Shown in pieces: positions 34,387-46,204 of a DNA stretch of 64,000 nt (positions within the stretch are counted from its first letter, which is position 1; each line of letters begins with the position of its first letter). Where the stretch lies: positions 124,001 to 188,000 of the forward strand of contig NZ_JAMXEX010000002.1 of the NCBI RefSeq assembly GCF_025370775.1, in the 5' to 3' direction. The notes under the pieces were generated by a model that saw nothing but the letters and a program-made list of their open reading frames with translations, was not told where the DNA came from and searched no databases. The stretch is from Ancylothrix sp. D3o (GTDB taxonomy: Bacteria > Cyanobacteriota > Cyanobacteriia > Cyanobacteriales > Oscillatoriaceae). The position numbers and the translations under genes were made by a program.

Positions 34387-35448
34387 ATGACAACGACCTT
34401 ACAGCGCCGTGAAGGCGGCTCCGTTTGGGAGCGTTTCTGCAATTGGGTCACTTCTACCGAAAACCGGATTTATCTCGGTTGGTTCGGTGTGCTGATGATC
34501 CCCACCCTGCTGAGCGCGACCGTTTGCTTCATCATTGCTTTTATCGCTGCTCCCCCTGTGGACATCGATGGTATCCGTGAGCCCGTTGCCGGTTCCTTAC
34601 TGTATGGCAACAACATCATCACGGGTGCTGTGGTTCCCTCCTCCAACGCTATTGGCTTGCACTTCTACCCAATTTGGGAAGCAGCCAGTATGGATGAGTG
34701 GCTCTACAATGGTGGCCCCTACCAGTTGGTAGTGTTCCACTTCCTGATCGGCATTTTTGCCTATATGGGCCGGCAGTGGGAGTTGAGCTATCGTTTGGGG
34801 ATGCGTCCTTGGATCTGCGTTGCGTATAGCGCACCCTTGGCATCTGCTACCGCTGTATTTTTGATCTATCCCTTGGGTCAAGGTAGCTTCTCGGACGGTA
34901 TGCCTCTGGGTATTTCCGGTACTTTCAACTTTATGATCGTGTTCCAAGCAGAGCACAACATCTTGATGCACCCCTTCCATATGTTGGGAGTTGCCGGTGT
35001 GTTTGGTGGTTCTTTGTTCTCGGCGATGCACGGTTCTCTCGTGACGTCTTCCTTGGTGCGTGAAACGACCGAAGTTGAATCTCAAAACTACGGTTATAAG
35101 TTCGGCCAAGAAGAAGAAACCTACAACATTGTTGCAGCACACGGCTATTTTGGTCGTTTAATCTTCCAATACGCTTCTTTTAATAACAGCCGCTCTTTGC
35201 ACTTCTTCTTGGGTGCTTGGCCGGTGGTTGGTATTTGGTTTACGGCTTTGGGTATTTCGACAATGGCGTTTAACTTGAATGGTTTTAACTTTAACCAGTC
35301 AGTGTTGGATAGCCAGGGTCGTGTAATTAATACCTGGGCTGATGTAATCAACCGCGCTAACTTGGGTATGGAAGTAATGCACGAACGTAATGCTCACAAC
35401 TTCCCCCTCGACTTGGCTGCTGTGGAAGCGCCTTCTCTTCGTGGTTAA
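34387..35448 (+). CDS. psbA: Photosystem II D1 protein, plant-type 353-residue form
   Basis: D1 is the reaction-centre core subunit of photosystem II in the thylakoid membrane. All key residues are present by count: Asp61, His118, Tyr161 (YZ), Asp170, His190, His198, His215, His332, Glu333, His337, Asp342 and Ala344. Residue 130 is Gln, the form linked to low-light D1:1 proteins. After Ala344, the processing site, only nine residues remain (AVEAPSLRG), so the protein is 353 long; most cyanobacterial D1 have a 16-residue tail and 360 residues. The short tail is like plant and Prochlorothrix D1. The carboxyl half ([30 protein letters not shown]) also reads plant-like. A CtpA-type protease is encoded at 44909. 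Confidence 0.98.
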
Positions 35449-35494: not shown

Positions 35495-35529
35495 AAAAAA
35501 GCGCTCTCCTTTTTGGGGGGCGCTTTTTT
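35495..35529 (+). terminator. Rho-independent terminator of psbA
   Basis: AAAAAAGCGC (35495-35504) pairs with GCGCTTTTTT (35520-35529), 47 bp after the psbA stop codon. A second small inverted repeat, AGAAATG/CATTTCT, lies just before it (from about 35462). Confidence 0.9.
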
Positions 35530-43491: not shown

Positions 43492-44712
43492 ATGCAAACT
43501 CTGCAAAACCCCTCAACCACCGCCTACAGTCACAATGCCACAGACGGCACTATCCACCGGCGCAAAACTCGCGCTGTGAAAGTCGGTAACGTCACCATTG
43601 GCGGCGGGTATCCGGTGGTTGTGCAGTCGATGATTAATGAAGATACGCTTGATGTTGACGGTTCGGTGGCGGCGATTCGTCGTTTACATGAAGTTGGTTG
43701 CGAAATTGTTCGCGTGACGGTGCCGAGTATTGCTCATGCGAAAGCGGTGGCAGAAATTAAAGAAAAGTTGATTAAAACTTATCAAGATGTCCCCTTGGTT
43801 GCCGATGTGCATCACAATGGCATGAAAATTGCCTTGGAAGTTGCAAAATATGTGGATAAGGTGCGGATTAATCCGGGGTTATATGTGTTTGAAAAACCCC
43901 GTGCAGATCGAACAGAGTTTTCGGATTCAGAATTTGCAGAAATTGGTGATAAAATTCGGGAAACTTTAGAGCCTTTGGTGGTTTCTTTGCGTGACCAAGG
44001 CAAGGCGATGCGAATTGGGGTAAATCATGGTTCGCTGGCTGAAAGAATGCTGTTTACCTATGGCGATACGCCGGAGGGAATGGTTGAGTCGGCAGTTGAG
44101 TTTTTGAGAATTTGTGAGTCTTTGGATTTTCGCAATTTGGTAATTTCGATGAAGGCTTCGCGGGTGCCGGTGATGTTGGCGGCGTACCGTTTGATGGCGA
44201 AAAGAATGGATGAGTTGGGAATGGATTATCCGCTGCATTTGGGTGTGACGGAAGCGGGGGATGGTGAGTATGGTCGCATTAAGTCTACGGCTGGCATTGC
44301 TACTTTGTTAGCTGAGGGACTTGGTGATACTATTAGGGTATCTCTCACAGAAGCTCCAGAAAAGGAAATTCCGGTTTGTTACAGCATTTTGCAGGCTTTG
44401 GGGCTTCGCAAAACGATGGTTGAGTATGTGGCTTGTCCGTCTTGTGGTCGCACTTTGTTTAACTTAGAAGAAGTGTTGCACAAAGTGCGTGAGGCGACTA
44501 AGCATTTAACCGGCCTTGATATTGCCGTGATGGGTTGTATTGTGAATGGCCCCGGAGAAATGGCGGATGCCGATTATGGTTATGTGGGCCGGCAACCTGG
44601 TTTTATTTCGCTTTATCGTGGTCGTGAGGAAATTAAAAAGGTACCCGAAGATCAAGGCGTTGAGGAGTTAATTGCTTTGATTAAGTCGGATGGCCGGTGG
44701 GTTGATCCCTAG
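43492..44712 (+). CDS. ispG: 4-hydroxy-3-methylbut-2-en-1-yl diphosphate synthase IspG (GcpE)
   Basis: The penultimate MEP-pathway enzyme, a [4Fe-4S] protein that converts MEcPP to HMBPP, precursor of all isoprenoids. The 406-residue protein shows [41 protein letters not shown], and the cluster cysteines in [16 protein letters not shown] and [13 protein letters not shown]. It is the cyanobacterial/plant-type length and would use ferredoxin. crtE, another isoprenoid gene, is elsewhere in the window. The gene is followed 196 bp later by the CtpA-type gene. Confidence 0.97.
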
Positions 44713-44908: not shown

Positions 44909-46204
44909 ATGGAAATGACAAAACGTGGTCTTGTTCTTGGTGCGACAGTGATAATGGTTAGTGCTGTAGCCATAGCAAGAGCAGATATCCACCCAAAAGT
45001 TTTAGCTTCTTTTCAGGATAGCCCTAAAGAATTGGTTGATGAAGTGTGGCAAATTGTTGACCGCAATTATGTGGATGCCACGTTTAATCAGGTGGATTGG
45101 GATAATGTTAGAGATCAATATTTGAGCCGGCAATATACCAGCAAGGACGAGGCGTATAAAGCGATCCGCGAAATGCTGGAACAGCTAAAAGATCCTTATA
45201 CTCGCTTTATGGATCCCAAAGAGTTCCAAAATATGCAGATTGATACGCGAGGGGAACTAACTGGGGTGGGGTTACAGTTGGCGCAAGATGAGGAAACTAA
45301 AAAGTTGGTAGTGGTGGCGCCAATTGAGGAAACACCGGCCTTTAAAGCGGGGATTTTAGCAAAAGATGAAATTGTTAAAATTGACGGCAAAAGCACTGAG
45401 GGGATGGATGTTAATCAAGCAGTGCAGTTAATTCGGGGACAGGCTAATAGTCAAGTTACTTTAACGATTCAGCGGGGTAAGGAGGTCTTAGAGTTTCGCC
45501 TTATAAGGGCTCGTATTGAAATTCATCCGGTGCGCCATGCTGTGCGAAAAACTCAGTCGGGGAATATTGGATATATTCGTTTGATTCAGTTTAGCGAAAA
45601 TGCGGCGTCGGAAATGCGAGCGGCGATTCAAGATTTGGAAAAGCAAAAGGTTGATGGATATATTTTAGATTTGCGTTCTAACCCTGGTGGGTTGTTGCAA
45701 GCTAGTATTCAAATTGCCCGGATGTGGTTAGAAAGTGGCACTATTGTTTCGACGGTGAACCGGCAAGGAATTACTGATAAGCAAAGTGCTAATAATGGCG
45801 CTTTAACTAAGAAGCCAATGGTGATTTTGGTGGATGGTGGTTCGGCGAGTGCGAGTGAAATTTTATCGGGTGCTTTGCAAGATAATAAGCGTGCGGTTTT
45901 GGTGGGTACTAAGACTTTTGGTAAGGGTTTGGTACAGTCTGTGCGTGGTTTAAATGATGGTTCGGGTTTGGCGGTGACTATTGCTAAGTATCTGACGCCT
46001 AGTGGTCGGGATATTAATAAGCATGGTATTGACCCGGATGTGGTGTTTGAGTTGTCTGATGAGCAAAAGTTGGCTTTGCGTAAGGATAATACGAAGATTG
46101 GTACGCCGGATGACCCGCAGTATGTGAAGGGTTTGGAGGTTTTGCGTAAGGAAATTGTGGCGAAGCAAGGCAATCGGGCGGAGTCTGCGAAGCAGAAGCG
46201 GTGA
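44909..46204 (+). CDS. S41-family carboxyl-terminal processing peptidase (CtpA/CtpB type)
   Basis: A 431-residue serine protease with a Ser/Lys dyad. An N-terminal signal-like segment (LVLGATVIMVSAVAIARA) exports it. A PDZ domain spans about 115-200 (LTGVGLQLAQDEETKKLVVVAPIEETPAFKAGI). The S41 core contains GYIRLIQFSENA, YILDLRSNPGGLLQ, the catalytic Ser in GGSASASEILSGALQ and the Lys in GTKTFGKGLVQ. In cyanobacteria one such enzyme (CtpA) removes the D1 tail; which paralogue this is cannot be settled here. psbA in this window has a nine-residue tail, a possible substrate. The stop codon abuts a GTCATTT repeat. Confidence 0.93.
   Translation: MEMTKRGLVLGATVIMVSAVAIARADIHPKVLASFQDSPKELVDEVWQIVDRNYVDATFNQVDWDNVRDQYLSRQYTSKDEAYKAIREMLEQLKDPYTRFMDPKEFQNMQIDTRGELTGVGLQLAQDEETKKLVVVAPIEETPAFKAGILAKDEIVKIDGKSTEGMDVNQAVQLIRGQANSQVTLTIQRGKEVLEFRLIRARIEIHPVRHAVRKTQSGNIGYIRLIQFSENAASEMRAAIQDLEKQKVDGYILDLRSNPGGLLQASIQIARMWLESGTIVSTVNRQGITDKQSANNGALTKKPMVILVDGGSASASEILSGALQDNKRAVLVGTKTFGKGLVQSVRGLNDGSGLAVTIAKYLTPSGRDINKHGIDPDVVFELSDEQKLALRKDNTKIGTPDDPQYVKGLEVLRKEIVAKQGNRAESAKQKR

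Follow-up and report, generated by a model that had tools for sequence, protein, structure and literature searches.

A nine-residue D1 extension in Ancylothrix sp. D3o and the apparent repeated shortening of psbA tails in cyanobacteria

Known D1 extensions and the psbA gene of Ancylothrix

The C-terminal extension of cyanobacterial D1 was given as 16 residues in PMC8121967, and that of Synechocystis 6803 was described as being cut twice by CtpA, after Ala352 and then after Ala344 (PMC8909930, section 5.1). Short extensions of 8–9 residues, found in green plastids and Prochlorothrix, constituted Group I in the classification of PMC8909930, where the major members of this group were presented as chlorophyll b organisms and its evolution as a "black box"; according to section 5.1 of that review, 8–9-residue tails were cut once in all organisms examined. 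CtpAs from four species accepted short as well as long tails, with better performance on the short one in two cases (PMC8121967). No mention of nine-residue tails in cyanobacteria lacking chlorophyll b turned up in the open-licence PMC text searched, which is no proof of absence.

The window, i.e., the whole 64,000-nucleotide stretch analyzed here, was part of contig G000:C2 from the Ancylothrix sp. D3o assembly (6.57 Mb, 142 contigs, 95.7% complete). The psbA gene therein (34387..35448, + strand; 353 codons plus stop, translated without internal stop) is an ordinary, intact gene of an already known length class. Its D1 precursor ended in HNFPLDLA(344)-AVEAPSLRG: codon 344 (Ala; 35416..35418, +), after which the CtpA cut is expected according to PMC8909930, was followed by a nine-codon extension (35419..35445, +) in place of the usual 16 residues. 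Codon 130 (34774..34776, +) encoded Gln, and thus the protein length, the tail sequence, and residue 130 were all as given in the earlier note. NCBIfam psbA model TIGR01151 scored 782.9 bits (cut-off 596.05), and its match stopped at profile position 348 of 360, the point where the window tail diverged. The residues checked for their presumed roles (e.g., Tyr161, His198, and Ser264) were all present, namely Tyr161, Asp170, Glu189, His190, His198, His215, Ser264, His272, His332, Glu333, His337, Asp342, and Ala344; these included the full list of what we take to be the cluster ligands (Asp170, Glu189, His332, Glu333, His337, Asp342, and Ala344), and the window protein therefore looks like a canonical water-oxidising D1.

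Upstream of psbA, the opposite strand carried a pentapeptide-repeat-like ORF, whose model score fell short of the cut-off, as well as a gene for a PLP-dependent aminotransferase, and a promoter scan of the upstream region returned no site. The opposite strand on the 3′ side held a 1366-residue ORF, sensor kinase-like by eye only. A terminator-like hairpin with a T run (35504..35520, +) followed psbA, a weak signal given five such sites in the stretch versus 2.7 expected.

The D1 chains of PDB entries 7oui and 9i4t, which we take to be plant proteins, end in AVEAPSTNG and share seven of nine residues with the window tail, so that the likeness to the plant tail pointed out in the earlier note held for both length and sequence. 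The window genome gave 13 phycobilisome-family matches above cut-off in a profile search; such genes would not be expected in a prochlorophyte, and judged by this gene content, the window organism is therefore not a typical chlorophyll b organism. Compared to Group I of PMC8909930, the window D1 had the same extension length (nine residues after Ala344) but differed in its phycobilisome-bearing host and in a tail ending in LRG instead of TNG, and its one-step cleavage is a prediction. Compared to the long-tailed D1 of Synechocystis 6803 (360 residues, 16-residue extension), it shared the body and the Ala344 cut site but lacked seven tail residues, including Ala352/Leu353 (PMC8909930). Close counterparts came from Oscillatoria sp. 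PCC 10802 and O. princeps RMCB-10, which belong to the same GTDB family: their psbA products likewise had 353 residues and a nine-residue tail, were 92–93% identical to the window D1, and were its sisters in the best tree (see below), but they contained Glu130 and the tail SVEAPAIKG, and both genomes additionally encoded a D1 variant, 82% identical, whose tail had 16 residues.

psbA paralogs in Ancylothrix and Fischerella

Three further complete psbA genes were identified in the window genome; they were 93% identical, all encoded Glu130, and had the tails SVEAPSIKG, SVEAPAIKG, and SVEAPSIKG; of the four genes, the window gene alone encoded Gln130. Gln130 D1 is the low-light form and Glu130 D1s are the high-light forms, and the window copy would accordingly be the low-light form, accompanied by three high-light ones. 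A Gln/Glu130 difference among D1 forms is described in PMC9709244 (D1:1 or PsbA1 type with Gln130); the window genome combined one Gln130 copy with three Glu130 copies. Moreover, two psbA 3′ ends (C18 and C71, both with the tail SVEAPSIKG) and two 5′ ends (C11 and C71) were located at contig ends, implying at least two copies beyond the four complete ones and at least six in all. Every psbA 3′ end in this genome (four complete and two partial) carried a nine-residue tail, and a second psbA with a 16-residue tail, which the earlier note had suggested looking for, was not found in the assembly (95.7% complete, 142 contigs). The window gene was 65–77% alike to locus L002 in the first 180 bases and 80–95% over codons 280–340, an identity profile with no recent conversion-like tract in this Gln130 gene.

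Fischerella PCC 9431 was the only genome with ungapped matches to residue 353 among the matches listed for its family (59 genomes); its relative G654 had a gene 98% identical to that of Fischerella PCC 9431, with a 16-residue tail. The Gln130 and Glu130 genes of Fischerella were 78–83% alike over the first 180 bases, 97–100% alike in every 60-base segment of the final 372 bases of codons 1–344, and equal at 28 of 30 bases of tail plus stop, and their flanks were unrelated; two divergent paralogs retained 16 residues. The combination of high 3′ identity, low 5′ identity, and unrelated flanks indicates that gene conversion, read here from identity profiles alone, probably spread the short tail between these paralogs, and conversion of this kind may help a short tail to pass from one psbA copy to another within a genome. 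Against this reading, the Gln130 and Glu130 genes of long-tailed G654 were also 92–100% alike across much of the 3′ half. Fischerella PCC 9431 and its long-tailed relative constitute a natural replicate for testing tail function.

Tail lengths and psbA phylogeny

Tail lengths were counted for 211 distinct non-viral body-plus-tail combinations with a full 344-codon body, a non-random set assembled from relatives of the window gene with a deliberate search for short tails: 146 had 16 residues, 49 had nine, five had 15, five had 12, three had 10, two had 17, and one had eight. Among the tails read, those of 15 residues occurred in family f26 and a Cyanobium, those of 12 in a Crocosphaera and four other genomes, and those of 10 in PCC 7702, G313, and G141. 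The 16-residue tail is the rule in cyanobacterial D1, as the earlier note had stated, with 146 of 211 combinations even in a sample steered to short tails. The penultimate residue was Asn in 128 of the 146 sixteen-residue genes, and it was Asn (22), Lys (16), Ile (7), Arg (2), Val (1), or Asp (1) in the 49 nine-residue genes. Gly346 was absent from 48 of the 49 nine-residue genes and present in 115 of the 146 sixteen-residue genes; these raw counts are strong, but once kinship was allowed for, the association between the short tail and Gly346 loss was not significant, because the six independent pairs available over starred branches are too few to reach significance.

When the last 73 residues served as query against 388 genomes of the order, 369 gave matches. 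Judged from the best rows, nine-residue tails were read in at least 35 of the 388 genomes, distributed over nine families (at least five genomes in f1, nine in f2, four in f3, and 12 in f7, and at least one each in f8, f11, f13, f18, and f46); examples were Trichodesmium, Okeania, Phormidium willei, Leptolyngbya PCC 6406, Shackletoniella, and Fischerella PCC 9431. Nine- and 16-residue copies occurred together in at least eight genomes (G005, G006 [= G299], G301, G303, G305, G306, G307, and G410). Within the family of the window organism, four genomes (G001, G005, G006, and G007) carried SVEAPAIKG, and two (G002 and G004) carried the 16-residue tail AGEQTPVALTAPSING. Among 80 viral loci, 79 gave 80 tails, composed of 74 with 15 residues, five with eight, and one with 16; the 8-residue cyanophage tails (AHTAPSIG, THTAPSIG, THTAPVIG twice, and TSKAPSIG; viral contigs L312–L391) were exactly seven residues below the usual phage length.

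Trees were built from codons 1–344 only (tail excluded) of 212 distinct genes, 48 of them nine-residue, and left out plastid and Prochlorothrix psbA. A 344-codon body starting with Met was required, which 18 non-viral rows failed, including the nine-residue rows L177, L182, L201, L278, L280, L282, and L395; partial genes were excluded, N-containing rows (two by difference, including one with a nine-residue tail) were removed, and L176, L181, L194, L320, and L404 were dropped from the 212-row set as long or divergent. The viral rows were eight drawn at random from 38 eligible distinct ones, among which no 8-residue phage gene was eligible. The first careful tree displayed 14 changes of the nine-residue state (11–14 in bootstrap trees; 43 with shuffled labels), seven of them forced by starred branches; its bootstrap was unsettled and some constrained trees scored better, and three more free searches were therefore run, giving 13, 14, and 13 changes and a best tree 84 log-likelihood units above the first. 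Such parsimony counts alone cannot distinguish gain from loss. Forcing all nine-residue genes into one clade was 519 log-likelihood units worse than the best tree (p-AU 0.0003; AU p 6e-9 against the first careful tree), and a single origin of the cyanobacterial nine-residue genes was thus rejected.

Smaller groupings were not rejected: (i) the four genes of the window genome as one clade (cost 29 units, p-AU 0.43), (ii) the 13 short-tailed genes of its family (56 units, p-AU 0.28), and (iii) the three Fischerella genes (38 units, p 0.33). In the best tree and one other of the three free trees, the window gene was placed as sister to the nine short-tailed Oscillatoria genes of its family; in the remaining one, its sister was the long-tailed gene of G004. 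In the first careful tree, the Glu130 genes of the window genome were placed beside long-tailed Microcoleaceae-like genes (100/97). One loss in this family is possible; since placements varied and the family clade was neither rejected nor proven, two separate losses are possible as well, and the long tails of G002 and G004 are a point against a single family-wide loss.

A decayed psbA 3′ fragment was observed in G004 (L236; G004:C39, ~110416-110535). It ended in the short tail SVKAPVIKG, and the intact psbA of the same genome had 16 residues, which hints that a short form once existed there and was then replaced or lost.

Origin and maturation of the short tail

The nine-residue tail is best read, with a probability of about 0.85, as the ancestral 16-residue tail minus a central seven-residue block in an otherwise ordinary psbA. 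In the tail comparison, the window remnant matched long tails at their start and at their A-P end, and the absent block spanned the position of the first CtpA cut in Synechocystis 6803 (Ala352/Leu353); positions 352–353 of the window D1 were Arg352-Gly353, and the first-cut site was gone. The long tail would be ancestral, and loss instead of gain of the seven residues is likely in cyanobacteria, because long tails occur in most surveyed cyanobacteria and in red and glaucophyte plastids and because repeated gain of an identical xPVAxx block is far less likely. The seven residues including the Ala352/Leu353 site may have been lost from the 16-residue extension in an ancestor of the window's family, a placement neither rejected nor proven by the trees. 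As that site is absent, the window tail is expected to be removed in one CtpA cut, and the precursor would be matured, as in plants, by cleavage after Ala344. Asn359 was reported to aid repair from photoinhibition (PMC8909930, section 5.2); its counterpart in the window D1, counting from the end, was Arg352.

The window genome encoded CtpA (contig C9), CtpB (C6), and CtpC (within the window). The CtpC gene (44909-46204, +; S41 protease; NCBIfam 735.6 bits, cut-off 665) lay ~9.5 kb downstream of psbA, with ispG at 43492-44712. It had been considered as a D1-processing protease near psbA, and this candidate was rejected: the CtpA model scored 506.9 bits, below its cut-off of 625.

Shared ancestry of the short tail with green chloroplasts and Prochlorothrix (Morden and Golden 1989, cited in PMC8909930) would account for the equal length and the seven of nine residues in common with the AVEAPSTNG chains, but it is highly improbable in view of the rejection of the nine-residue cyanobacterial genes as one clade, of unrelated lineages that have the same tail or closer ones (AVEAPSING in both Okeania and G227; AVEAPSIKG in Trichodesmium), and of the 15–16-residue tails of red and glaucophyte plastids (PMC8909930). 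These long tails, together with a single primary endosymbiosis, place the plastid loss inside the green line, and the plastid loss would therefore be independent of the cyanobacterial ones. The short tail thus looks like the outcome of repeated shortening and not a chloroplast link, since several unrelated cyanobacteria lost the same seven residues. The kinship with chloroplasts or Prochlorothrix implied in the earlier note was not supported: short tails were frequent in the order (at least 35 of 388 genomes), and a single origin of the cyanobacterial ones was rejected. Within cyanobacteria, the group that these two results cover, they match the opposite case that the note had raised, a short tail common in the group and independent of the chloroplast one. 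The note's observation was right and its meaning over-read, and the interesting part is the repeated seven-residue loss. The survey suggests that the ancestral tail was long and that cyanobacteria shortened it many separate times, also outside chlorophyll b organisms, and the recurrent minus-seven step, which cyanophage show as well (15 to 8), is relevant to the "black box" question of the 2022 review.

A small number of deletions followed by the spread of short tails through transfer of psbA or its 3′ end, between cells or via phage, would fit the conversion-like identity between the Fischerella paralogs, the presence of psbA in cyanophage (five of 80 phage tails read had eight residues), and the suggestion in PMC8909930 that transfer caused the confusing distribution. 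However, in the cases read, gene bodies grouped with their own long-tailed relatives (e.g., Fischerella with G654 and G615), the tail endings were like theirs (APAING for Fischerella and other Nostocales alike, EIIG/ELVG for the group of Leptolyngbya PCC 6406, and APSIKG/APSING elsewhere), and the short phage tails (THTAPSIG and similar) equaled no cyanobacterial nine-residue tail read; such spread is an unlikely explanation, and separate shortenings are preferred over it. Only slightly less doubtful is that the exact loss of seven residues reflects mere mutation bias, i.e., slippage at the pair of A-P repeats in the long tail. In PCC 7702, the 16-residue tail SVEAAPVAIAAPAING coexisted with the 10-residue tail SVEAAPALNG (loci L166/L186 and L156), a pair that looks as if six residues had been removed between the A-P repeats, as slippage would yield. 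Across 147 distinct long-tail DNAs, however, the best microhomology for a six-codon deletion averaged 5.3 bases (45% with at least 6) versus 3.0 bases (1% with at least 6) for a seven-codon deletion, so that slippage would favor 10-residue tails, and it was rejected as the source of the seven-residue loss; nine-residue tails in fact outnumbered 10-residue ones by 49 to 3 distinct genes and by 13–14 to 3 tree changes, a comparison based on few events and on sampling that favored short tails. Because microhomology favors six codons yet nine-residue tails dominate, and because phage show the same step from 15 to 8, the evidence leans towards selection on the resulting tail. A broader proposal, that selection has repeatedly favored a change from two-step to one-step maturation through removal of seven residues, many separate times in cyanobacteria, in marine cyanophage (15 to 8), and once more in green plastids, assisted by gene conversion among the psbA copies within genomes, is put forward tentatively and has somewhat less than even odds; if true, the chloroplast–Prochlorothrix deletion would be one case of a general convergence.

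Two minor observations were made on psbA loci elsewhere. psbA was apparently split in PCC 10802, Fischerella PCC 9431, and Elainella, at a run of unknown bases in the first two and at an ambiguous position with a frame change in the third, and these splits are probably assembly gaps. Okeania SIO3B5 contained a tandem psbA pair (L043 and L161), the two copies lying 669 bases apart and bearing an identical nine-residue tail.
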